Shown here: positions 1 through 19,231 of the stretch, one piece after another | Layout of the letters: every line of letters begins with the position of its first letter | How positions within the stretch are numbered: the stretch's first letter is position 1 | Source: Nannochloropsis salina CCMP1776 | Lineage: Eukaryota; Sar; Eustigmatophyceae; Eustigmatales; Monodopsidaceae | Reading direction: 5' to 3' | NCBI GenBank assembly: GCA_004565275.1 | Contig: SDOX01000108.1 | Span: 951-22,424, forward strand | Length of the DNA: 21,474 nucleotides | Notes under the pieces: model-generated | Told to the model about the DNA's origin: nothing | Databases searched by the model: none | The model's input: the letters and a program-made list of their open reading frames with translations, nothing else | Program-made: the position numbers and the translations under genes

Positions 1-2456
1 GCGCGCCGTGCTCGACCCGTTCAATCCGCACGCCCTGAGGGGCCAGCTCCTCTCTGCCGCAGACGAACTTCCCCTCGGCGGGAGGGAGGGAGGGAAGGAA
101 GGAGGGAGGGTAGGAGGAAGAGAAGGAGGGAGGGAAGGAGGGAGTGTCGGAGTTAAAGGAGCAGGCAAGGAAGGAGGGAGGAAGGAGGGGTGCAAGACAA
201 GAAAAGAAGAAAAGGGTGGAAAGCTTTCCGAAAGCATTCGTGAGCTTTCCACTTTTCTCCCTAAGTCCCTCCTTCCCTCCCTCCCCTCCTTCCCTCCCTC
301 CCTCCTTCGCAGGCATTACCCAGGGCACCTGGACCGAGACATTTTTGGCGCGAAAGCCTTCGACGAGGCTCTCGCTGACCTGGTGCAAGTGCGTCACCGC
401 CCCGACCTCCCTCCCTCCCTCCTTCCTCCCCTCCTTCCCTCCTTCCCTCCTCCAACCACTTTCTTCGTTCTGTCTTGGGTCTCCCTTTTTCCTACGCTCC
501 TCCCTCTCTCGTTGGCCCATGTAGCTCGTTGCCCTCTCTCCTTCCCTCCATCCCCTTCATCTCTCCCTCCCTCCCTCCCTCCCTCCCTCCCTCCCTTCCT
601 TCCTCCCTTCAGGGAGGGCAGCTGACGGGGCCCCTGTCCGACGGCGCTTACCGCAAGATGGAGTGGGTCGTGAATCCTCAGGTCAGAAAAGGAGGGAGGG
701 AGAGAGGGAGGGAGGGAGAGAGGGAGGGAAGGAGCGAGGACGGAGGACGGGTGAGACTCACGTTGTTTCACTCCACCCAGCGACACGTCAACCTCCGGAT
801 GATCGACCCTGTCACCTTCGAGGTGCGTCCGCCCTCCCTCCCTCCCTCCCTCCCTCCCTTCCTCCCCTCCTTTAACTCTCATTTCCATCTCCCTTTTTTT
901 CTTCCTTCCTCCTTCCCTTCCTCCCCCCCTCCCTCTTTCCCTTCCTCCTTCCCGCCCTCCCTCCTTCCCGCCCTCCCTCCCTCCCGCCCGCCGCACCTCT
1001 AGGTTGTCTCCCGTGTGTGGGGCTACCGGAAAGTCTGGCTGCAGTCTCACCGGGTATTTGAACAGGGAACGTTTTCTCTACCTCCCCTTGAGTACGAGAC
1101 TCGGGCGCTCTTCATCGACATGGACGTGACAATGAAGGAAGAGGTAGGGAGGGCAGGGTGGAGGGAGGGAAGGGGGAGGGAGGGACGGGAGGCATACGCG
1201 TGATGGAGGAAATTTGAAGTTCCGGCGGAGGATGGAGTGGAAGTCGATAGAATCAACAAAGGAAGGCAAGCCAGGGTGTAAATGACCCCCGAGCTTCTCC
1301 TGAATCTTGTCCCCTTCTTTTTCCCCGTCGCCGATTTTCCCTCAATCCCGCCCTCCCCCCGCCCTCCCCCCCGCCCTTGCCCCCACCAGGTCGTCCAGCA
1401 AGGCTTCGATTACCTAGGGGGACTCCATGCTATCAACCACGCGCTCCTCGCCGTGACCCCTCTCTTCCTCAAGTGCGATCCGGGCGACATTGAAGCCGAG
1501 CACGCCCACGTCCAGGTCCTTCATCCCATCCATCCTTCTTCCCTCCTTTTCTATATGTGCCTATGTCCCGTTTTTCCTCCCTGTCACTTTTTCTTTTCCC
1601 GCCTTTTTTTCCCCTCCGTTCTCTCTTTCTTTTCCCCCCCTCCTTTCCCCCCCCCCCTTCTCCCTTTCTTTCCTCCTGCTTTCCCCTTTCGCCGTTTTTT
1701 TCCCTTTCCAAAGACACCCATCCCTCTCCCTCGGTGGTTCGGACCTCACGCCTCTTCTTCTATTCACGCTTTATCCTCCCCCCTTCCCGTCCTTACTTCC
1801 TCCCCTCCCTCCGCTTCTTCCTTAGTACCAACGTCCCCGCCCCCCGCGCGTCTGTGTCTACGACAAGCGACCCGGAGGTATCGGCGCGAGCGATGGACTC
1901 TTCAGGTGAGAGAGGGAGGGAGGGAGGGAGGGAGGGGGGGAGGGAGGGAGTGAAGGAGGGCGACGTCTATGAAAGGAAAGGAACCGCACATGATGTCCCA
2001 TGACACAGTTTCTAGCACATTCCTTGACCGCTCGCGCTTCCCATGCTCCTTCCTTTCCCTCCCCTTTTGCCTTCTTCCCCCCTCCCGGTCCGGTCCTCCA
2101 GCGCTTTGCCCCACGTCCTCTCGCAAGCCCTCGCCCTCCTCGCCTCCTGCCCCTGCGACCTCCTCTCTGGCTGCCCTTCCTGCCTCGTCCTTCCCTCCTG
2201 CTCGTCGTACAACACGGTGCTCCACAAACCTGCCGCCCTCCTCCTTCTGCGGCGCCTGCTGGATCGGCTCGCCGCGGAAAAGGAGGGAGGGAAGGAAGGA
2301 GGGAAGGAGGGAGGCGAGGAGTCGACTCCTCGGAAGGAGGCACGCCGCCAGGCGTTGAAGCAAGCGAAAGGAATGGAAATGGCGCGAACGAAGGACTTGG
2401 TTCTCCAGAAGGAATGGGTCAAATCCTTTCCTAATTACAGGCCAGAAATGGATTGA
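1..2456 (+). CDS. HRQ1: HRQ1-type RecQ4-like ATP-dependent DNA helicase, C-terminal part (5' end outside window)
   Basis: Predicted exons: <1-about 189 (donor unclear, anywhere from about 82 to 189), 313-388, 613-681, 781-822, 1003-1143, 1390-1515, 1826-1905, 2102-2456 (TGA). From exon 2 onward the phases agree. The first exon has the helicase-family motif DPFNPHALRGQLLSAADELP. Exon 5 has VWGYRKVWLQS followed by LPPLEYETRAL, and exon 6 has GGLHAINHALLAVTPLFLKC. Exon 7 has the VYDKRPGGIGASDGLF motif, and exon 8 a four-Cys cluster CPCDLLSGCPSCLVLPSC followed by YNTVLHKPAALLLL. Together these are the DUF1998/MZB metal-binding domain of the HRQ1/MrfA helicases, which act in DNA crosslink and damage repair (family knowledge). 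The two RecA-like helicase domains must lie upstream of the window. Exon 8 continues into a Lys/Glu/Gly tract encoded by a GGAGGG repeat and a basic tail. The first intron has no clean donor: GTGCAAG at 190 fits the phase, and reading through would also stay open. Confidence 0.88.
80..612 (+). repeat. GGGAGGG and CCCTCC microsatellite tracts in HRQ1 introns 1 and 2
   Basis: G-rich (GGGAGGAAGG-type) repeats run from about 80 to 190, and CCCTCC/CCTTCC repeats from about 265 to 308, 407 to 452 and 540 to 610. The repeats leave several reading frames open, giving Gly/Arg/Glu or Pro/Ser/Leu strings with no protein meaning. The G-rich block is at the 5' side of intron 1 and the C-rich block just before its acceptor. 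Confidence 0.85.
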
Positions 2457-3539: not shown

Positions 3540-6500
3540 ATGACTCGCATGTTCATGGTAACAATAAGTCTGGTCCTACTTCCTCTCGGCTCCCTCTTTT
3601 TTGTCATGTTGCTGTACGATTTGGACGTTCTTAAACCCTCGCCACGGCCCTCAGAGAGACTTTACTCTGAGGATGGTGAAGTCCACTTCGTACCAACACC
3701 TTCCGGATTCATTTGTCGTACATTGGGACGAGAGTCTATCATCGGTGAGGGCATAAAAATATAGAGCGAGAAGAGGAAGAGGAGCTTGGTGGGGAGGGAA
3801 ATTCTTAATAGATATAGTCAATTGGCCCAAAAGTTTCAAAGGGAAAAGGTAGGATAAGATAAGTATCGCAACATGCACAGGGACCTGAGACAAGAGGGGT
3901 TCCATGAAGGAATAGCGCGGATCACAATCCCAGATATCAGTTGTCATTATCCGGTGGAAGTGAGAAGAAGGACGGCGAGAAGCACGCAGATCTGTATGGA
4001 CGCAATATGCTACGGGGGCGTGTTCTTACACACGGTCCATAGATATGTGTCCGTGAGGGAATGAGAAATACGAGCAGCGAGCATAGGCCGGTGCTAAGCA
4101 CTTCTCCCGTCCTTTTCTCTTTTCCGTGTTTCAACTCAAATACGCTCGTCCCGCAGGTGCTGAAGACATCGTGACGCTCACCCCTTCCCTTTTCATCACG
4201 GGCACCGACGACCGTCTCCGCTTATGGGAAAACCCCGACTTCGGCCCGACCCGGACTCCGCAGGTATGGGTCGGAGAGAGGGAGGGAGGGAGGGAGGGAG
4301 GGAATGCAGGGAACATACTAAGAAAATACCCGTCGATCATCACGCTTCCAGGGAGGTTTGGTCGCCCTTTTCGAGGAGAAGGAGGGGGAGGGCTTGAGGA
4401 AAGGAGGGCGGGAAGGAGAGATGAGGGAGGGCTTGAGGAAAGGAGGGCAGGAAGGAGAGATCAGGGTGGCCTCAATTCCGTTGCTGGATTTTCCGAAAGG
4501 TGTGGCGTTCCATCCGCATGGGATGTACTACCACAGGTCAGGAGGGAGGGAGGGAGGGAGGGAGAGAGGGAGGGGAGGAAGGGAGGGTAGTAGGGAGGAA
4601 AGGAGATGAGGAAGGGAGGGAGGGATGTGCTGGAGTAGGGAGGGAACGGACAGCGGTATTGTGAAAAATTCGTCCAGCTTTTTGAAAATTAGAAGATTGT
4701 GAAGGCAGAAGAAGGGGGGGCGCGGGAGATGCAAGGGAGGTGGGAGGGAGGGAGGCACTGCGCGGCTTCACCCATGCCCCTCGACACAGGTCCACGTCGA
4801 AACTCTTCGTAATAAATCATGCCTACGACAAAGGTGTGTACCCTCCCTCCCTCCCTCTCTCCCTCCCTTCTTCCTTCCTTTCTATCCCTCCCTCCCTCCT
4901 TTCCCTCCCTCCCTCCCTCCCTCCTTCCTTCCTCTCTTCCTTCCTTTCCCTCCTTTCATCTGTTCTTCCCCTCACACCCTTCACGGGCTTCCTCTTTGCC
5001 TCACCCATCCCATTCCCACCCTCTCTTCTCGCTTTCTTCCCTTTCTTCCTCCCCCCCCCTCTGATTCCCTCCCTCCCTCCCTCCCCCAGGCGGAGAACGC
5101 ATCGACGTCTTTTACCTCACCCTCCCCGGGCAGACCCTCCCCGGGCAGACCCGCCCCGGCCGCCGAGACGATCCCCTCCACGTCCGCTGGGTGTACGCCC
5201 TGGCGCCTCCCCTCTTCCAAGCGGAGAGCATGGGGACGTTGAACGACCTGGTCGTCCTGCACGCATTCCCGCCGCCGCCGGTGGGGGAGGGCGGGGAGGA
5301 GGGCGGGGGGGAGGGCGGGGAGGAGGACGAGTTCTATGTGACGAGCTATCGGGCTTTTCCCGACGCGGTGGCGGGTCGTTTGTGTCCCGCGAATATTTTG
5401 GCGAGGTGGGGAGGGAGGGAGGGAAGGAGGGAGGGAGGGAGGGAGGGAGGGAGAGGGAGAATGTCGTGGACGCAGGAAGTCGTCGACAGGGCCTCCGAGC
5501 CAGACACACTTTGCGCTCCCATCTCCATCCACCTCCCTGCCCCCCCTTCCTCTCTCCCTCCCTCCCTTCCGTCTTCACAGATTTCACGACGTGCTTAACT
5601 TTCTTGGCGTGGCTCTTCACCGACGGTGGACTCGGATTTTGTACTGCAAGGTCCTCCTCGCCCTCCCTCCCGCCCTCCCTCCCGCCCTCCCTCACCTTTC
5701 GCCCTCCTTCACCTTTTCTCCCACTTCTTCTGAGTGCGCTTCCCTTGTGTTTTCCCTCCCTCCCTCCCTCTCTCCCTCCCTTCTTCCTACCTCCCTAGGG
5801 TCAACATTGTCGCCCTACCCTCATCGACGGCAAAGAGGGAGGAGGACGCGTCTTCAACGGCATCAACGTCTCCCCCGACAAAGAGCGACTCCTCGTTGCA
5901 GACATGAAGGTCTCGACTATTTTCCCTCCCTCCCTCCCTCCCTCCCTCCCTCCCTCCCTCCCTCCCTCCCTCCCTTCCTCCCTCCCTCCCTCCCTCCTCT
6001 CCTCTCCCTTCCTCTTTCCCTTTTTCCCCCCCCTCCGTCCTCCCTCGTGTTCCAAACAGTCGTCCTCCAACGGAGCAGGCACGCATGTCTTATCCTCCTC
6101 CTCTTCCCTCCCCTCCTGGCTTCCCTCACCCTCACCCTCGCTCCTTCCAGTCGGTCCACATCTTCCAGCTCGACCCCTCCCTCCCCCACGTTCTCCACCG
6201 GCTCGCTTGCCTCCCGACCCCGCACCCGGTGGACAACATCGAAGCCGTGCCAACAAGCGAGGATCAGGACATGGAAGGGAAGGAGGAGGTAGAGAGCTAC
6301 ATGTTGGGATGTACGTATGCGCGGGAGGGGGAGAGGAAGGAGGGGAGGAAGCGAAAAGTTGACGTTTACAAAGGGTCATGAGGCCATGAATGGGAACGGA
6401 TTTCTTCCGAATGTTCTCGATTTTGCATCCTCATTTTCATCCGTTGTGCCTGCTTTCATACCATTTCCTTCCAAGCCTTTGGTCACGTCTGGATGTTCAT

Positions 6501-7746: not shown

Positions 7747-9151
7747 ATGAAGCTGTCCATTCCTTCGCTTTTCCTGGCCTGTGCCGTCTTTACTTTAGGT
7801 AAAGGAACTGTCAATGCTGGCAGCATGCGTGGTGCAGAAAAAAAAGGTAAGGAAAGGCATGTACACATCTTGAAGAGCAAATAATAAGTGCACTTTATGG
7901 ACGTCCCTTGTCGAGCTCTCGCATCGCTCATCTTGTACCTTTAAAGAAGCATGAGAATGCGTTCTCGGAATGACCTCCCACTGTGACAAGAGAGAACCGT
8001 CCCAATCCTGCTATCTCAAACCGTCCTCAATGCTTTTTGCTCACATACATATCTGAACATTTGTACAATTTCCTTCGTATTTCCCTCTGCATCTCTCTTC
8101 TCAACATACGCTAATCAAAGTGAACGGTGAGAAATTAAAGATGCTGATTGACTGCTTCGCCAGGTAGGTTACGAGAGGAAAAGGGCGGGACGAAGGGAGG
8201 GAGGATGGAAAGGAGTAAGCGCCACACACAATTTGAGGACTGAGCGGTCGAATACCATGTTTGCACCTGGGTACCTCAAACCCCCCTCTCCCTCCCCTCC
8301 TCTCCCCTTCCATCCCTCCCTTTCTTTCCAGTTATATGGAGGACGCCTCCTACCGAGCTGATAACAGCAAACGGGATGGGTGCACCGACGCTGAGATCCT
8401 CTACTGCCGTACCGACAGGTGAAAAGGGAGGAGGTAGGATTGTGTGAGGGAGAAATAGTTGGATGATTGAAGGGGTTCTGCTTGTCAATCTGTAATTAAC
8501 TGCCGGTCCTTAAAAAAGACAGCAGGGGGATATAAGGTAGTAGAAGGATAAGAGAAGGAAGAATGGAAGACAGGGAGGGAGCGAGGGAAGGAGGGAGGGT
8601 GAGGTTGTACGTGTCCCTAGGACATGCACGCCGAGCATGCCTCTCAATCAGGCGGCCGCGCCCTACCCTATCCCTCTCTCCTTTCATCCCACTCAGCGGC
8701 TACAACGACCACTTCTGCCGCTTTGACGGGACCAACAACCTCATTGACATGGGCGAGATCCCTCTCTGGGGGCCACAGGACGCGGTTCCCGAATGTTGGT
8801 TCAACTGCCAGGTGAAAAGGGAGGGAGAGGATGTACAGCTATGCCCGTCATGTTTCTCGTTTTTTGCGCTGCATCCTTCTCGTTTCTCCTCTGTTTTCTC
8901 TCGCTTCTGTCTTTTCTCTACCCGTCTGTTCGCTCCACCCCCTGAACTGGCACGCCTCTCAAGGCCATCCTCTTTCCCCCCTTCTCTTCTTTCCCTCGTT
9001 CTTTTCTTTGGCGCCCTGTACCTCATTCCTCTTTTGACCCATTTCTGAGGCCTCACTCCCTCTCTCTTCCTTGTCCTGCCAGATGGAGACTTGCAACGCT
9101 TGGGAATTTCCCCACAACGAGGAGCAAGAAAAATGCGTGGCTGCTCTTTAA
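7747..9151 (+). CDS. CRP1: small secreted eight-cysteine protein of unrecognised family
   Basis: Five predicted exons, phases all consistent: 7747-7846, 8121-8163, 8332-8418, 8697-8811, 9083-9151 (TAA), 137 aa. The N-terminus, MKLSIPSLFLACAVFTLG, is a typical signal peptide with probable cleavage near residue 24 (VNA-G). The mature part has KLKMLIDCFA, then GCTDAEILYCRTD, GYNDHFCRFDG, ECWFNCQMETCNAW and KCVAAL at the C-terminus. It has eight cysteines spaced 19-7-10-25-3-4-13 residues apart, suggesting four disulfides. CRP2 at 12815-14874 has the same eight cysteines and most motifs, which strongly supports this model. I recognise no known domain. An extracellular or wall role is inferred from the signal peptide and neighbours. 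The acceptor at 8120 (TCAAAG) is weak, but the phase and the paralogue alignment support it. Confidence 0.85.
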
Positions 9152-10240
9152 GGGCGGAGGCTTCTTTGGCAAAAAGCAAAAGGCGCGTGCCGTGGCTCCA
9201 CTTATGAGTTTTTAAGAGTGTTAGAGTGAGGAATTTTTGTTAAGGGGGATGGGTTGCGCTCGATTGTCTGGTGGGACTGGTCCGAGACGATCTTCCCTTA
9301 AAGGAGCAATTGAAAAAAGGTATACGTTGACAAAGATATCAGTTGGCAATGCACGACAGGATATCAAAGAAAGGCAAAACCTAAAGCATAACTAAGATTC
9401 ATAACTATGCTACTCACTTTTCTTTTGCATATATTGCGAAAGGGTATATAAATACTAAGACAAGAAAAAAGATCGGCTCTCTCATGTTCCTCCCTCCTAT
9501 ACAACCCAAAAAATGATTCTCCGCCACTCGAAATTTGACCTGATAGGCATATTTGGAAAGTGACAGATGTACTTTTTGGATGCTTAGGAGTCTTTGTTCT
9601 TTTCCTCCGGCACCGGATGTCAAATCAGAACTTCACCATGGGCCATAGCGGGGGCTCAACCGCTCCCTCCTCTTACCTCCTTTCAAAATGAAAGCTCTCA
9701 ATATATCGCTTGCATTTAACCATCTGGTATACGTAATTTATGTGTGACATGGCCGGGAGGCTCGCTTGCTCAATACCCACGCAAGGAAACGTACGGGAGG
9801 GCGTAACTACCTGTAGCTGTCGGGGCTGGGTTCGCGCATTTTTTTTATTTTACCCGGTCAAATTTACCGTCCCGGTTCGCGCAATTTTTCAGTTAATATC
9901 CTGGACTCGGTTCGCGCAATTTTTGGTCCACCATCCGGCGACCGGATTTTCGGTTTGACAAAATATACTGCCATGTGCGCACACCATGGGCGTGAGCACA
10001 ACACCCATACATCCCAAGCCCGACACCTGGGCTCTACAACTCGGTATTCGCTCGAATGCAAGGCGCGTGTTTCCTCTTCACGTTCTCGTGGGCTTTGGTG
10101 TCTTGAATACCATCGTGGCAAGCATATTTGGACATAGATGCGTTGTGTGCACACGTTATTCTTGTTAGCAACTGCCCCCGTGGCGAGTGCCATGCATGTA
10201 AGATTTCTCACCATTTTACCCTTTTTGCCCCCTCCCAGGC
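9152..10240. other. Intergenic region between CRP1 and the Pro/Tyr/Asn/Gly-rich gene
   Basis: About 1.1 kb without a convincing gene. It is AT-rich to about 9750, with a triplicated GGTTCGCGC motif at 9829-9924 (separate entry). CCCCCTCCCAG ends two bases before the ATG at 10241, so a 5' UTR intron may end there. Confidence 0.45.
9829..9924 (+). promoter_or_regulatory. Three direct copies of GGTTCGCGCAATTTTT, candidate regulatory array
   Basis: Copies start at 9829 (variant, GGTTCGCGCATTTTTT), 9874 and 9909, the last two identical over 16 bases. They lie 317-412 bases upstream of the ATG at 10241. The core TTCGCGC resembles E2F-type sites (TTTSGCGC), but that link is only an inference. The array could also be a decayed tandem repeat. 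Confidence 0.45.
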
Positions 10241-11838
10241 ATGCGCGTCCTACTCACGCTCGCATGTGTGGCATTTTGCGCCCTGAGCTTCACCGCTGCC
10301 CACTCGCCTTACGACACAAATGGCAATGACCATGACAACCAGCATCATCAACAACAACCTCCTCCGCCAGGATACTCCCCGAACGGCATGCCATCTGGGA
10401 ACAACAACTCCCCCCCCGGTCCAGGAAACACAAACTACCCGCCCACGCAAGGCAGCAACCCCTATTCTCCCTCACAAGGGAGTGGAAACTACCCTGGAGC
10501 CCAAATTAATGGTTATCCTCCGCAAGCCCCCGGCAGCTACCCTCCCAATCAGGGTGGCAGCAACTACCCGCCTAATCAGGGCGCAGGAGCGTACTCTCCC
10601 GCGCAACCCAACGGCAATTACCCTTCAGGTCAAGGCAATTATCCTTCAGGACAGGGACAAGGAAACTATCCTCAAGGCTCGCCCTATGGGAATCAAGGCG
10701 GCGGCTCTACAGGCACCTATGGACCGGGAGGGATGGGGGGGGGGGGGCAAATGCCTGGCGGCTACCCGCCAATGCCCAATGGGAACAGTAACTACCCCCC
10801 CAACCAAGCCTATCCGCCGCAGCGTGCTCCCATGAACAATTACGGCCCCGCCGGGGTTGGGGGTATGCCAATGCAGGGCATGCAAGGCGGGTACCCCCCC
10901 GGGGGAATGTTGAAAGGAGGGTCTGCGAGCTACCCTCCTGCACAACAGGCGGCGATGAACGGGAGCCCCGTCGCGAACACCATGCCGAGCAACGATCCTA
11001 AGGCCAGCCCCGTTCCTCCCGCGGACCCGACAAAGAACGGAAATTCAAAAGGTGCGTTGTCCAAACCGTAAATGAGCGGTGGGGGAGGGCCACAGGGCAG
11101 GGGAGGCGTAGGAGGAGGGAGGATGCCTCCTGTACGCTAACTGTTTTTGCTACCTTTTGGATTTTGTTGTCTACAGATGCGGTGCTGTCGAGTTTGGAGC
11201 AGGCGTCCGCTCCCATGGCTTCATCTCCGGCGACTGTCGCCTCCCGGTCCACAAATTGTCAGTAGGGAGGGAGGGAGGGAGGGAGGGAGGAAGAGAGCGA
11301 AGGGGGAAAGAGCGGGGAGGGCAGAGATTTGGATTGTTAGGTAGCGTCTTTTGATACTGGGAAAAGGATACTACATTGTGATGGTAATGTGGTGGTGCGG
11401 TAGAGAGGGTGAGGGAATGATCGAGGGGAAAGTGAGCGGGTGCAGGTTATGTTTGGAGGAGACGATGGCGATGGCTCATGGATGGGTTGATAGTGAGGGT
11501 ATGATATGACAAGGATGGCTACGATGTATGCGCTTCCTCGATCATGAAGAGGAGAATGAGGAGGGGTAATGAGTGGGACGGGGAGGGTCATTCTCTAAGC
11601 CTCTTGTATTTACGGCATCGAGTCCTACTCTGAGAGCGATGAATGTACCAACTCACTGACACTGGTTTCCTTTTCCCTACCGCAGTGCGAGGAGGGCAGT
11701 AGCAAAGCATCCGACGCTGTAGCCCTCTGGCATGAGATAGGTAACCCTTGCGGGGCGCGGCTGTATCGGTGCAATGCGCGCGACACAGGGTGTGTTGAAT
11801 GGGCCATTGATTTGAGCCAGCATTGGGGCATGGGGTGA
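10241..11838 (+). CDS. Secreted Pro/Tyr/Asn/Gly/Gln-rich repeat protein with Cys-containing C-terminus
   Basis: Exon 1 is clear: ATG at 10241, signal peptide MRVLLTLACVAFCALSFTAA, then a His/Gln patch and about 190 residues of degenerate repeats such as NYPPNQG, SYPPNQG, NYPSGQG and GGYPPM. These look like structural, adhesive or matrix proteins with disordered Tyr/Pro repeats. The 3' end is less sure. Preferred model: donor GTAAAT at 11068, exon 2 11177-11261 (CGAVEFGAGVRSHGFISGDC), exon 3 11686-11838 ending TGA (includes SSKASDAVALWHEIGNPCG and ARLYRCNARDTGCVEWAIDL); phases agree, 354 aa. Alternatives: no splicing, stop at 11069-11071; or donor at 11052, phase-compatible, giving a stop at 11263-11265. 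Exon 3 may begin further upstream, since its frame is open from 11599 with natural-looking sequence (ESYSESDECTNS). The start context GCATGCGCGTCCT is shared with CRP2. Confidence 0.7.
11265..11320 (+). repeat. GGGAGGG tract just after the 5' splice site at 11262
   Basis: GGAGGGAGGG repeats start at the predicted donor (GTAGGGAGGG) of intron 2 of the Pro/Tyr/Asn/Gly-rich gene, as in many introns of this window. There is no matching C-rich tract at the 3' end of this intron. Confidence 0.7.
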
Positions 11839-12814
11839 AAATGGGGCGTTGTTTGATTTTAGGTGCCCGCGGTGTACAGAGAGTTGATGCCTCACAGGAC
11901 GTTCTTTGGGATGAGGATAAAACAAGGTCTTTGTGGGTCTGAGGGTTAGGTTCACAGGTCTGAATTAGGAACAAAACTTCCTACGACTATAGCACATCCG
12001 TGTGAGAATGCATGTTTTGTTATTTGGAGTTCACGAGCAAGTCACGATGCCGATCTTCTATCCCTTATGTGAATCGAAGCTACGGATGGGAGGGAAGTAG
12101 GAACAGATAAAGGAATAGCAAAGAGTGCATGGGGTCAAAGCATTTATTTATTGAACGCGCGGCGACCTCAGCACGCAATATTGAAAGAACGACGAAAATT
12201 GATGGCAGACTTTTCGCTGCAGTTGTTTCTTCGAAGCGATGGCCGTGGGATGTATTCTACGGGTCGTACGTCTCTTATTTCTAAACCAGCACAGAGATGT
12301 GCTCTTTCTTTTTGGATATACCCCCCTGACTTTTTGTATAATCATTTGAAGAATTTTTCCGGTCCTGTCTATCATTGACTTGGGGGATGCTATTTGTCGT
12401 GTCGCCTACAAAATTGCACTGTGGTATCTATCCTTTACGTCTGTCACAGTCTTGCCCTACAACTCCATAATCAGACTCGGAGAGCCCCAAAGAAATAGAT
12501 TGCAGGGGGGGAGGTTATCGTATCTTCAACTACCATCACCCGACACTATCTTCTGATTTTCTATCTTTTTGCGCATGCAATTCCAAAAATAATCCTTGGA
12601 AACTATGTACAAGTATCTTTTTGTTTGAGATACTCATACTCAAGCTTTTTTTTCCCCTTTGTGAAACGGGAATGTCGAGAAGACCCAGTAATTTTTGCTC
12701 CATCCCGGGGCTATATCCTTATCATCAGCTCTTCCTTCTAATGTGCCCTTCCATGTGCCCCTTGTACCTATCATGCACCCCGTTGTCAGATCCTACATAT
12801 TTTCAAACTCAAGC
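11839..12814. other. Intergenic region upstream of CRP2
   Basis: Roughly 1 kb with no gene I can support. Overlapping open frames on both strands around 12148-12378 have no motif and are probably chance. The last 120 bases before the CRP2 ATG stay open in the CRP2 frame, but they encode no signal-peptide-like start. Confidence 0.4.
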
Positions 12815-14874
12815 ATGCGCGTCCTTCTTCCTCTCGCCGTTCTTGCTGCGTCGGCGTCGTCTTTCACCTCAGCCGTCCCTCGCCCCCCGCTTCACTTCAT
12901 GACTGAGGAAGCATCATCATCATCCGTGGGTTTTCCCCCTTTAGAAACCCTTTTCCTCTCTACTGAAGTCGATGTTCAAAGTAAATCTGCGGAAATAGCG
13001 CCTCAAGTGCCACAAGTTGACCCAATGCTGTCGTCCAAGGACCATAACTTGCGTGGCTCGTCGTCCGAAAAAGGTATGGGCGTAGATAAAAAGACACTCA
13101 GGGAGCTTGATTCCATTGTCAGACCCTTTTTCTTGCCCTACTTTATCCTCACCCGCTTGTAAAGCTCTTTAAAATTCCCAGTCCCCCCACTCGATCCTTT
13201 CTTTCGTCCTCCCTTCTTCTCTAAACCCCCCTTCCTCTCCCCCTTCCTCCCTCCCTTCCTCCCTTTTCTCTACCCGGGACATCATCTTCCTCTGCTCCTT
13301 CTCTAACCCTCCCTTCCTCCCTCCCTTCCTCCTTCCCTCCCTCCCTCCCTCCCTCCCTCCTCCCCACCCGGGACATCATCTTCCTCTACTCCTTCCATCG
13401 CCGCTGCCACCCCTGCTCCTACCACAGACGTCGCTGTCATTCCTGCCTCACTTACTGCTACTGGGGCGGCCACGATCATGGAGGAGGCTGCCGCAGCTTC
13501 CACCGTGGCCCCTGTGGTGGTCCCTCCCTCCCTCCCTCCCTCCCTCCCTCCCTCCCTTCTTGCGGCTCCTGTCGCCCAAAAAGCCACACGAGCCCCGGAT
13601 GGCCTCAAATTGAAAATGCTCATCGACTGCTTTGCGTGGTAGGGAGGAGAGGGAGTAGAGAAATGGAAGGCGGTGACGGAGGGCAGAAGGGAGGGCGCGA
13701 AGGAGGGAAGGAGGGCGCGAAGGAGGGAGGGTAGGGAGAGGACGAGGGAAGCGCATGGTTGTCGGAGACAGATCTTGCTGTGAATGGAACCTTAAAATGA
13801 TTTTGTTATCCTTTTAATGTCCGCACCTCGCTTTTCCTCACTCTCCTCCTCCCTCCACCCTGTCCTCCCTCCCTCCCTCCATCCCGCCTTCCCGCCTACC
13901 CGCCCTCCCTCTCTCCCTCCCTCAGGTATCTTCCCGATGCGGCCCACCGCGGCGACAACAGCAGGACAAAAGGCTGCGATGAAAGCTCCATCCAGGTGAC
14001 TGCTTCTACCTACCTACCTCCCTCCCTCCCTCCCTCCCTCCCTCCCTCCCTTCTTCCCTTCCTCCCCTCCGCCTTCTCCCCCCCGCCTTCTCCCCCATTT
14101 TTTTTCTTCCCCTGCCCGAAATTCTTCCCCTTTCTCCCTTCTTCCCTCCCTCCCTTCCTCGCATCCTCCTCGAGACCGATGCCTGTACATCAAGTTGAGA
14201 CTCGGTGGTCACTGTCATCTCCCGTCCTTTCCCTTTTGATCGTAACCCGAGCCCTACCTTCCCTCCTCCCGCCCCATCACATCAGTACTGCCGAACAGAC
14301 AGTGGGCACAACGACCACATGTGCCGTTTCGACGGTTCCAATCACCTTAAGGTCAGGAATGTGGGAGGGAGGGGGAGAGGGGAGGGAGGAAGGGAGGGAG
14401 GGAAGGAGGGTGTGTGGTTGTCTTCTCTTCTTCTTCGTCCTCGCGTCTCTGCTTGATTCTCCGACCTCACAATTTGTCCTCGCTTACCCTCCCTCCCTCC
14501 CTTCCTTCCTCCCTCCTTCTCTCCCTTCCTTCCTTCCTTCCTTTCTTCCTCCCTCCTCGTCGGCCCCTTCAGGACGCCCTTGATGCCAACCCTGACTGCT
14601 ACTTCAACTGTCAGGTTTGTCGACCCCCCCCCTCCCTTGCCTGTTCCCACCTAGCCTTTGTTGTCCTGGTTCGCATTCCCCCCTTACGACTTTGCTTCCG
14701 GCACTTTTCCTCAAAGTTTCTGGTCTCTGACTTCCCCGTGTGCATGAACTCCCTCCCTCCCGCCTTCCCTCCCTTCCTCCCTTCCTCCCTTCCTCCCTCC
14801 TTCAGATGGAGACTTGCAACAGCTGGGACAATCCCACCACTGACAAGACGCGCTCCTGTGTGGCAGCCCTCTAG
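12815..14874 (+). CDS. CRP2: secreted eight-cysteine protein, paralogue of CRP1 with low-complexity N-terminal region
   Basis: Six predicted exons, all phases consistent: 12815-13073, 13428-13638, 13926-13995, 14286-14351, 14573-14614, 14806-14874 (TAG), 238 aa. The start was chosen for the signal peptide MRVLLPLAVLAASASSFTSA and the GCATGCGCGTCCT context shared with the gene at 10241. After it comes about 130 residues rich in Ser/Ala/Pro/Val. This includes a PPSLPPSL repeat in exon 2 encoded by the same CCCTCC tract that fills nearby introns. The Cys domain begins with LKLKMLIDCFAWY, then DNSRTKGCDESSIQYCRTD, GHNDHMCRFDG, DCYFNCQMETCNSW and SCVAAL at the C-terminus. The cysteine spacing 19-7-10-17-3-4-13 matches CRP1 except for one loop eight residues shorter. 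Intron positions differ from CRP1 in the middle of the domain. Function unknown; extracellular location is inferred. Confidence 0.85.
13200..14805 (+). repeat. C-rich and G-rich tracts in and around CRP2 introns
   Basis: CCCTCC/CCTTCC tracts lie at about 13240-13365, 13522-13558 (coding), 13860-13923, 14020-14160, 14487-14555 and 14752-14803. GGGAGGG tracts lie at about 13640-13740 and 14362-14410, each directly after a donor. Within 13258-13385 a segment containing ACCCGGGACATCATCTTCCT occurs twice (13273 and 13366). Confidence 0.8.
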
Positions 14875-16323: not shown

Positions 16324-18810
16324 TCATTGCGCAAACTCGACGGGTAGTACCTGGAGCGGTGGAAACTCGGTCCGGCACGTAGCATTTGCTATGCTTCCAT
16401 CAAAAAGTCCGTATTCGATGTTGAAAGTATCGTCTTCGAACTCTTCTGTCACGTTGATCTGGTTGTCACCAGCGAAGATAAGCAAGATGGGATGGAGTGA
16501 GGGAATCAGTGACTTGTCCGCGTGTATGAGGACAGGTAAGTTGTCAGATAGAGCATCTACCATCACACTCTCCAGACTCACCTTGACCTTGTACGATACC
16601 ACCCTTCTTGACTTTTGTAATGGCGACGTCAGAAAGAAAATCTCGTCGGCAAAGTCATCGACTTGGATGTCTGCTGTCTTTGCGCTCGGTCCCTTTGCGC
16701 TCACAAACTCGATTCCAAAGGGAAGATCCAGAAAGATATTGGGAAGAGATCTCTTGTTGTATGTTGTCACTCGAATCCTAGTGGACAGAGTGGTCTTGGG
16801 CTTTCGGGCCCTGATTACCACCCTTTTGCGCGCGGCGTGCTTGTATTTGAAACGAGGGTCACAAGGAGGCAGCAGAGGAAAAATGGTCGACCCAGGCTCA
16901 GGGATCTGGATTGTACAGCTGAAGAGACATTCACATCTCTAAAGCGTGGGTGGATATTGTGTCATGGGGTGGTTGGCCAGGTATGGTTTGATAGCACGGG
17001 TCCATGACACCGGGGGAAAGGATGACTGGAGCATGCGTCCCAGCTTACCTCCTCTTCGAGAATCAGTGCAAACCAGTTCACAAGACCAGGAAAGGAGATC
17101 TGGCACTGCGTCGAGCATTCCTCGGGGGTCTTAGTATCCGGAAAGAAGCCCAAGTAGTTCGCTATTCCACGTGGTCATCCAGGTCAGAGAATAGAAAATG
17201 AGCATGTGAGATGTTGTTGAGTCCATGCTTTCTCTGTCTCCTCTAAGGCTTGCTACATACCTCCAGTATCCTTGCAAGCAGTGTTTTGTAAAGCGCACTC
17301 ACGGCAAAATGGTAAGGGGGAAGTGGGACCTGTTATATCAGAATGTGATGAGGGTTACGTAAAATATTCTTCAGTAGGATTCCTGCACGCAATTTATGCA
17401 CAAAGAATGACAAATACGCTAGATATGCCACGTACTCGGGGTGGGTATAGTTGTTGGAGATGCTGTCGGAGCCGATGTCGGTGCCGCTGTCGGGCTGCCA
17501 GTAGGACTCATGGTTGGGGAGGCAGTGGGATTCGGGGAGGGCGTTGGTAGCGACGACGTGGGAACTGGAGTAGGTGTGACTGGAAAAAGGCGGAAAGGTC
17601 TAGATCAGATGATGAGAACGATCTCAGTGACATCAGGAAAGGTATGATGTGCGGATTGAAGACTCAGATTTGTAAAGTAAGGATATCGAGCCCAGCGGAC
17701 AAGGTCCCTCGTCCCATGGATGAGACTATCCTCCTCTTCAGGCCTCAGAGAGCTGAGCTTGACGACTGTGTCACGGAACTCACTTGTTGGACCAATGGAC
17801 GAGGGACTAGCGGTAGGAGTATCAGTCGAATCTCCGGTAGGAGCTGGGGTAGGGCTGGTATGTGTGGAATGGATGCGAATGATTATGCACGTGCGTAAGT
17901 CACTTGATGTGTCATCTGTCGAGGACGATTTCATCAATTACCTTAGTGTCTGAGGCGACGCAGAGCACGCCGATCCACCTAGATCTAGTGCTGATAATCG
18001 GCCTGTAGTCGAGTAATCAGGAACCGATGTTGCCACGCCAGTCTCTAGGTCGATGGTATACCAATTGTCCACGGTAACATCGGCGGAATTGAATTGTTGA
18101 CCGTACAAGATTTCTTCTTCGCAGTCAAATGCAAGTTGGAGGGAGGGATTGCCCGTCTTGATCTCTGTGTAAGGAAGGGTGGGCTGCTCGAATGCGTCGT
18201 CGAGGTCAATCTTTGCGAATCGCCCATTGACTGTTGCCAAATATAACATGTCGGTGCTGGTCTTGATGGCAATGTCGCCAAACGACATGAAAGCTGGACT
18301 GAAATCAGGCCCTGCAATAGTTCGTTGAATATCTGTTCCAACTCCAATAGGATTGTCGGATACATCATAAGTGATGGGGAGAAAATTGACCGTGCTCCCT
18401 CTTTCAGTGATCCAAACGAAATATGAAATGCCAGTGCTGGGATCGCGGTAGAATTCCGCGTTTGCCGGGAATCTTTGATTGTCCCAGGATTGTGCTTGGC
18501 TTGCGATACGGCCAATGGCTCCGGTGACCTGATCCCAATAGTACAAGCCCGCAGGATTGGAAGCATCGCCTCTATAGAGCCAAAACATTTGGTTCCTGGC
18601 CTCGTCAAAGGCAAATGCATTGCTGCCTCCGTCTCTCGTCAGACCTGTGTCCTCAACAACCCTCGTGACTTTGTTAACAGGATCGTATTCAATAATCTCA
18701 TTGAAGCTATCGATTCCGTACATAAACGCAGGTGCGGCACTTGTAATGCTCAGAGCCAGCATGCCGACTAGAAAGATAAGCGGCTTCATCCTCATCTTTG
18801 TGCACAGCAT
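16324..18810 (-). CDS. Secreted mosaic protein: propeller-like domain, Ser/Thr/Pro stalk, WSC/apple-like Cys domain, beta-rich C-terminus
   Basis: Six predicted exons on the minus strand, every phase consistent: 18810-17942, 17854-17784, 17579-17436, 17329-17261, 17161-17049, 16938-16324 (TGA), 626 aa. Residues about 8-25 (MKPLIFLVGMLALSITSA) form a signal peptide. About 26-280 has spaced blade-like stretches (EIIEYDPVNKVTRVV, AFAFDEARNQMFWLY, GLYYWDQVTGAIGRI, WYTIDLETGVATSV) like secreted beta-propellers. Then come about 70 residues of PTPAPT/SPTMSPTGSPT-type stalk, likely O-glycosylated. The Cys domain follows: CRECALQNTACKDTG, NYLGFFPDTKTPEECSTQC, FALILEEERCECLFSC, resembling WSC/PAN-apple carbohydrate- or protein-binding modules. 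The last 190 residues (TTLSTRIRVTTYNKRSLPNI, LDLPFGIEFVSA) look like an Ig-like/DUF11-type beta sandwich. No hydrophobic C-terminal anchor is visible. Probably a wall or matrix protein. The blade and C-terminal assignments are inferred by eye. Confidence 0.82.
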
Positions 18811-18843
18811 GACTATGCTCAGTTCGAAATATGATTGAGTACA

Positions 18844-18899
18844 CTGAAAAGTGAAGATGGTCAGTGAGGAATGAGTAGAAGAACAAGGGCATCGAGTAC
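18844..18899 (-). other. Candidate 56-nt intron in the 5' UTR of the mosaic protein gene
   Basis: On the minus strand the segment runs from GTACTCGATGCCC to CTTCACTTTTCAG and ends 33 bases before the ATG at 18810. Two diverged relatives with the same GTAC start and CTTCACGCTTCAG end sit at 19255-19309 and 20111-20160. The splice signals are good but the intron is unproved. Confidence 0.5.
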
Positions 18900-19231
18900 C
18901 GTTCCTATACGCTTTGTGGTATGGGCCAATCTAGGGTCGTCAGGCTGCACCCCTCAGAGCAGAATCTTAAGCGCCACGTTGTACTATGACAAGACGCAGT
19001 GCACACCAGATGAGTGCTCAGGTGAATTTCTATCGTTTAAAGTCTTTACAATGCATTCCATCGAAAAGAGATGAGATGCATGCGTTCACCGGGAATACAG
19101 GACGCACCGGTCGGAGCGAACAGAATCCCACACGCAATCCCACTCTCTGGTCGCACGAACGGAACTAATCCCCCCTTTTCCTGAAATGCTAAGTTCTCAC
19201 TATGCCAGTCGCCCCTTTCAAAGAGTCGAGG
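18900..19231. other. Intergenic stretch with no gene seen
   Basis: Only short open frames without motifs. It presumably includes the promoter of the minus-strand mosaic gene. Confidence 0.4.

Follow-up and report, generated by a model that had tools for sequence, protein, structure and literature searches.

What kind of protein is encoded by two neighbouring cysteine-rich genes of a eustigmatophyte alga, and what might such proteins do? The genes, here called CRP1 and CRP2, lie in tandem on the forward strand of a stretch of 21,474 nucleotides of the Nannochloropsis salina CCMP1776 genome (contig SDOX01000108.1, positions 951 to 22,424). We refer to this stretch as the window and give coordinates as positions within it. 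An earlier interpretation made from the DNA letters (the sequence-only reading) had taken the pair for diverged paralogues of a secreted eight-cysteine family. We find their shared domain to be real and, as judged by its lack of a match in Pfam, NCBIfam and PDB sequences, apparently undescribed.

An eight-cysteine domain shared by two genes

From G[EL]KLKML onward, the C-terminal domains of CRP1 and CRP2 are identical at 59 of 94 gap-free residues, with a single gap of eight residues, and all eight cysteines are common to both. The shared motifs and cysteine spacings listed in the sequence-only reading were reproduced in the spliced proteins: 19, 7, 10, 25, 3, 4 and 13 residues in CRP1 and 19, 7, 10, 17, 3, 4 and 13 in CRP2, so that one loop differs in length (25 versus 17). 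Both proteins also carry the QMETCN and CVAAL ends that it had called invariant, each chain closing with a four-residue VAAL tail after Cys8. The local alignment of the two domains scores 329, versus 52 for the best of 1,000 shuffles.

Selection on a compact cysteine-rich domain had likewise been proposed, and the proportions of differing non-synonymous (pN, 0.247) and synonymous (pS, 0.834; saturated) sites bear it out. The combination of a low pN with saturated synonymous sites indicates that the domain has been held by purifying selection since an ancient duplication. An old duplication also fits the pattern of shared and shifted intron positions. Two introns within the domain agree in place and phase (phase 2 after CFA; phase 0 between Q and METCN), the intron near YCRTDS differs in both respects between the genes, and CRP2 has one additional intron.

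The N-terminal regions had been described as unrelated. This held for their sequences (alignment score 21, with a maximum of 39 among 200 shuffles), although the first exons end alike, each closed by a phase-1 intron after MRGAEKK or LRGSSSEK, a likeness judged by eye.

Gene models and coding support

Joining exons at GT–AG boundaries yields an intact frame for both genes, with five exons and 137 amino acids for CRP1 and six exons and 238 amino acids for CRP2. The ATG of CRP1 at 7747 and the stop codon of CRP2 at 14874 coincide with the ends given in the sequence-only reading. Gene structure and linkage, like conservation and selection, are observed.

Exons were scored with codon preferences trained on 695 codons from three light-harvesting genes of the host, against an intron background drawn from the CRP1 and CRP2 introns themselves. 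Of the three plus-strand frames, the proposed one scores highest in 12 of 12 CRP exon segments, and all nine CRP introns are negative in every frame. Three segments have marginally negative scores even when read in the proposed frame: the first exons of CRP1 and CRP2 and the final part of CRP2 exon 2. Some of the short exons, taken singly, are unremarkable beside open intergenic windows; CRP2 exon 4, for example, scores 0.013, a value that 8% of open 66-nucleotide intergenic windows reach. Taken together, codon scores, pN/pS and intron places agree that the exons of both genes are real.

CRP2 exon 2 has an alternative in-frame acceptor at 13583; splicing there would shorten the protein to 186 amino acids by omitting a stalk of 52 residues rich in Ala and Pro. 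We prefer the longer form, with the exon starting at 13428, because of the codon scores (0.399 for the first part of the stalk, 13428-13515, and 0.068 for the whole stalk) and because 13427 is the first AG after an AG-free stretch upstream of the exon. Tracts of CCCTCCCTCC and GGGAGGGAGG are frequent in introns and flanks, for example at 13230-13370 and 14476-14560; inside CRP2 exon 2, a tract resembling them translates as PPSLPPSLPPSLL.

Copies and relatives

Searches of the host genome by tblastn returned seven matches for CRP1 and eight for the CRP2 domain, all in this locus. Patterns that join C-[x]-FNCQ to a splice donor, and a splice acceptor to METCN, have exactly two genome matches each, both here, and control patterns have none. 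The CRP family here is thus two tandem genes of one genome, a count that covers 26.5 Mb in 103 contigs and from which diverged copies with short exons may escape. The window lies on a 50-kb contig, on which the 950 bases to its left and the 9.9 kb fetched to its right are masked. For two Nannochloropsis species, the part of PMC6610115 consulted gives published genome sizes of 28.5-29.0 Mb.

Protein databases returned no convincing relative, in line with the earlier statement that the domain is not one of those recognised. Neither CRP1 nor CRP2 matched a Pfam family at E values up to 10, nor did the 186-residue alternative of CRP2 at values up to 1, in searches in which the HMMER filters remove most weak matches; NCBIfam also gave no match for either protein. 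Among PDB sequences, the best hits were antibody heavy chains at an E value of 0.15, which we judged to be chance, and the CRP2 domain had none. The sole PHROG hit (PHROG 30836, E value of 0.28) was likewise attributed to chance, and phages yielded no relative of CRP1, the only protein searched there. Five pattern scans of viral contigs produced 111 and 2 stretches in the first two and none in the others, and two scans of prokaryote genome contigs produced 97 and 13; no stretch was confirmed. Such DNA scans find a relative only where a short peptide is matched exactly, and distant relatives may therefore escape them, most of all those whose coding sequence is split by introns.

No description of the CRP proteins was found among the papers listed in searches of a mainly open-access literature, and the portion of PMC7554720 available uses ‘cysteine-rich’ only for a DNAJ protein. 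The analysis yields a domain definition that is clean and open to testing. Secreted cysteine-rich families confined to one lineage are frequent, so the mere existence of the CRPs is unsurprising.

Predicted secretion

Both proteins begin with a hydrophobic 19-residue stretch (Kyte–Doolittle (KD) values of 1.41 and 1.79), sequence features that were read as such rather than by a signal-peptide predictor. Beyond residue 22 of CRP1 no 19-mer exceeds a KD value of 0.18, leaving the protein without a transmembrane-like segment. Judging from these starts, CRP1 and CRP2 probably enter the secretory pathway.

A third gene between CRP1 and CRP2

Between the two lies a third, secreted-looking gene, which we call MID and which is new here, being absent from the sequence-only reading. 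Its minimal model encodes 299 amino acids, with a signal-peptide-like start followed by a chain of about 280 residues rich in P, G, N, S, Q and Y. The first 20 residues of MID and CRP2 align with a score of 52, reached by none of 2,000 shuffles, and their first DNA is similarly alike (0 of 300 shuffles as high). Genome-wide, a DNA pattern for MRVLLxLA matches MID and CRP2 only, and its reversed control has one chance match. A relationship between the 5′ end of MID and that of CRP2 is therefore probable. In all three genes the first exon is followed by a phase-1 intron; their upstream regions, compared over 400 bases before each start, show no likeness (scores reached by 121, 276 and 76 of 300 shuffles).

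The last cysteine of MID, in its STNCQ end, falls at the place where exon 2 of the CRP genes ends with Cys1, a position that is no more than suggestive of a former cysteine domain. We looked for a decayed CRP domain 3′ of MID (11052-12814) and do not claim one: the best match, CYLSCRLQNC in a frame starting at 12379, has a score that is reached by 12 of 300 resampled sequences for the CRP2 domain and by 61 of 300 for the CRP1 domain. An open frame at 11686-11790 on the plus strand (CGARLYRCNARDTG; CEEGSSKASDAVALWHEIGNPCGARLYRCNARDTG), faintly like a CRP third exon, was also rejected; its codon score is one that 9.5% of open intergenic windows also reach, and none of the listed donor–acceptor pairs that would include it combines a good donor with the good acceptor at 11685 (by eye).

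Table 1. Exons of CRP1, MID and CRP2, in window coordinates
Feature	Position	Strand	Encoded content	Intron that follows
CRP1 exon 1	7747..7846	+	Signal-peptide-like start and short N-terminal segment	Phase 1
CRP1 exon 2	8121..8163	+	VNGEKLKMLIDCFA; Cys1	Phase 2, position as in CRP2
CRP1 exon 3	8332..8418	+	Cys2 and Cys3	
CRP1 exon 4	8697..8811	+	Cys4, 25-residue loop, Cys5 and Cys6	Phase 0 (Q/M), position as in CRP2
CRP1 exon 5	9083..9151	+	METCN...CVAAL stop; Cys7 and Cys8	
MID exon 1	10241..11051	+	MRVLLTLACVAFCALSFTAA, then P/G/N/S/Q/Y-rich low-complexity protein	Phase 1
MID exon 2 (minimal model)	11177..11265	+	...SRSTNCQ stop	
CRP2 exon 1	12815..13073	+	MRVLLPLAVLAASASSFTSA and N-terminal segment	Phase 1
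CRP2 exon 2	13428..13638	+	Ala/Thr/Val/Pro-rich stalk, then GLKLKMLIDCFA with Cys1	
CRP2 exon 3	13926..13995	+	Cys2	
CRP2 exon 4	14286..14351	+	YCRTDSGHNDHMCRFDG; Cys3 and Cys4	
CRP2 exon 5	14573..14614	+	DALDANPDCYFNCQ; Cys5 and Cys6	
CRP2 exon 6	14806..14874	+	METCN...CVAAL stop; Cys7 and Cys8	

Comparison with known cysteine-rich proteins

Non-specific lipid-transfer proteins and hydrophobins, from plants and fungi, are secreted, about 100 residues long and built on eight cysteines, with adjacent CC and/or CXC. The CRPs resemble them in being secreted-looking and in having eight cysteines; unlike them, neither CRP contains CC or CXC, and we assign the CRPs to neither group. Secreted phospholipase A2 was rejected as well, as its active-site pattern (CC-x2-H-x2-C) does not occur in the CRPs and Pfam gave no match.

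The nearest biological parallel, offered as an analogy and compared by description only, is with the SiMat7-like proteins of diatoms. According to the part of PMC5501833 consulted, this family is characterised by eight conserved cysteines, falls into one expression cluster with PT-repeat proteins and is linked to the cell wall. SiMat7-like proteins and silicanins share with the CRPs a stramenopile lineage, and their signal peptide has a putative equivalent in the hydrophobic CRP starts (PMC5501833 and PMC5525289, each in part); the Asn/Gln-rich region of silicanin-1 recalls MID (PMC5525289, in part). By contrast, the same excerpts describe for these proteins an RXL site and a transmembrane helix at the C terminus, and place 18 conserved cysteines of silicanin-1 in an NQ-rich region of 341 amino acids. 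The CRP chains end four residues after Cys8, without such a helix, and no RXL follows the signal-peptide-like start; the only candidate, R-V-L (CRP2 residues 2-4), falls within that start, and CRP1 has none. Because the RXL site and the C-terminal membrane helix are missing, we do not file the CRPs with the SiMat7-like proteins.

Possible functions

The role that we prefer, tentatively, is that of anciently duplicated, secreted disulfide-domain proteins in what would be a locus of surface proteins, with the domain most likely serving structure or binding in the cell wall or extracellular matrix. Four disulfide bonds would lock the acidic CRP domain into a compact unit. CRP1 consists of hardly anything besides the domain and would either diffuse or partner in assembly; CRP2, in which the domain stands behind a long N-terminal segment and an Ala/Pro-rich stalk, would be embedded in the wall or extend through it; and the glue-like, P/G/N/S/Q/Y-rich product of MID would act beside them. 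Secretion, disulfides, wall location and this division of labour are what we infer from the encoded proteins. Among the observations in favour of the wall or matrix are the secreted-looking MID neighbour with its CRP2-like start, the Ser/Thr-Pro-rich frames at 17419-17937 on the opposite strand, and the SiMat7-like precedent in another stramenopile (PMC5501833, in part).

Several points weigh against this assignment. No ligand-identifying feature was recognised in the CRP domain. The existence of the CRP2 stalk hinges on which acceptor is chosen, 13427 or 13583, and the stalk contains a mildly hydrophobic stretch (best 19-mer at residue 100, KD value of 1.32). The starts of CRP2 and MID (...SFT.A..P) faintly resemble the Phe-containing pre-sequence ends of the host light-harvesting proteins, by which likeness plastid routing of CRP2 is possible. 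The start of CRP1 is not clearly MID-like: 35 of 2,000 protein shuffles reach its score against MID, and its DNA is at chance against MID and CRP2 (128 and 79 of 300 shuffles), so MID, CRP1 and CRP2 are not established as one family. We consider unlikely the more ambitious proposal of a eustigmatophyte-specific modular wall cassette, in which CRP domains, stalked or not, and a glue-like polymer would assemble or cross-link the outer wall as a counterpart, lacking silica, of the eight-cysteine wall proteins of diatoms.

The CRPs might instead be secreted signal or recognition ligands of a surface receptor, CRP1 diffusible and CRP2 stalked, which would suit a small secreted-looking domain with a strict cysteine frame, one variable loop (25 versus 17) and two diverged copies. 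We regard this as unlikely, given that no processing site or receptor indication is seen and that the domain has evolved slowly at the protein level (pN 0.25, pS saturated), whereas recognition ligands commonly change fast. Mating in particular is a less likely role because loss of sex is inferred for Nannochloropsis from incomplete sets of meiosis genes (PMC6610115, in part). Secreted-looking, cysteine-rich proteins with no relative in the collections searched could also serve in defence, against microbes or grazers; we think this improbable, as only two copies are seen, with no expansion, and the domains are acidic. Their isoelectric points of 4.3 and 5.4 argue against a cationic membrane-active peptide, and antimicrobial peptides are usually cationic.

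Conserved Asp, Asn and His residues (DNS, RTDSG.NDH and FDG.N) could mark a small secreted enzyme or metal binder. CRP2 keeps 8 of the 10 Asp and 5 of the 7 Asn residues in the gap-free columns of CRP1, as well as the NDH motif, yet this retention does not significantly exceed that of other residues (Fisher p 0.27 for Asp and Asn together), one of two His is kept, no catalytic signature was recognised and the His pattern of phospholipase A2 is missing. We hold a role of this kind to be improbable too. Inhibition of proteases by a Kazal-like mechanism is very improbable. Kazal domains among the PDB sequences share the Cys2–Cys3–Cys4 spacing of 7 and 10 and the C-x-T-D that opens the second loop, but their other cysteines, Tyr and overall profile are unlike those of the CRPs. 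The Kazal pattern, C-x7-C-x6-Y-x3-C-x(2,3)-C, is not present, Pfam gave no match, and profile comparison by hhalign of small alignments (two and three rows) returned a probability of 0.5%, with 20 of 100 column shuffles as high.

If the CRPs are associated with the wall, as we tentatively prefer, they would offer, as defined proteins, a way into the tough wall of an oleaginous biotechnology alga, as well as a point of comparison for diatom wall proteins.

Other features of the window

On the minus strand, frames at 16324-18930 include a signal-peptide-like start (MKPLIFLVGMLALSITSAAPAFMYGIDSFNEII) followed by the Ser/Thr-Pro-rich stretches at 17419-17937; they are possibly one large secreted protein, and the pieces scanned had no Pfam match. 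Rfam gave no match in the window. Upstream of CRP1, at about 4450-6300 on the plus strand, a spliced gene resembling those of paraoxonases/arylesterases is represented by pieces (FHPHGMYYH, NGINVSPDKERLLVAD and PVDNIEAVP) that, when joined by eye, match Pfam Arylesterase with an E value of 0.009, which falls short of the curated cut-off. A possible exon of a helicase C terminus at 1282-1953 (plus strand) matches Pfam MZB (MrfA Zn-binding) with an E value of 0.03, also short of the cut-off. In the host genome at large, the chlorophyll-binding family has 34 matches, counted per exon, and one of its proteins matches the PDB chain VCPI-2 (8zo9, from Nannochloropsis) end to end, with 205 of 223 residues identical.

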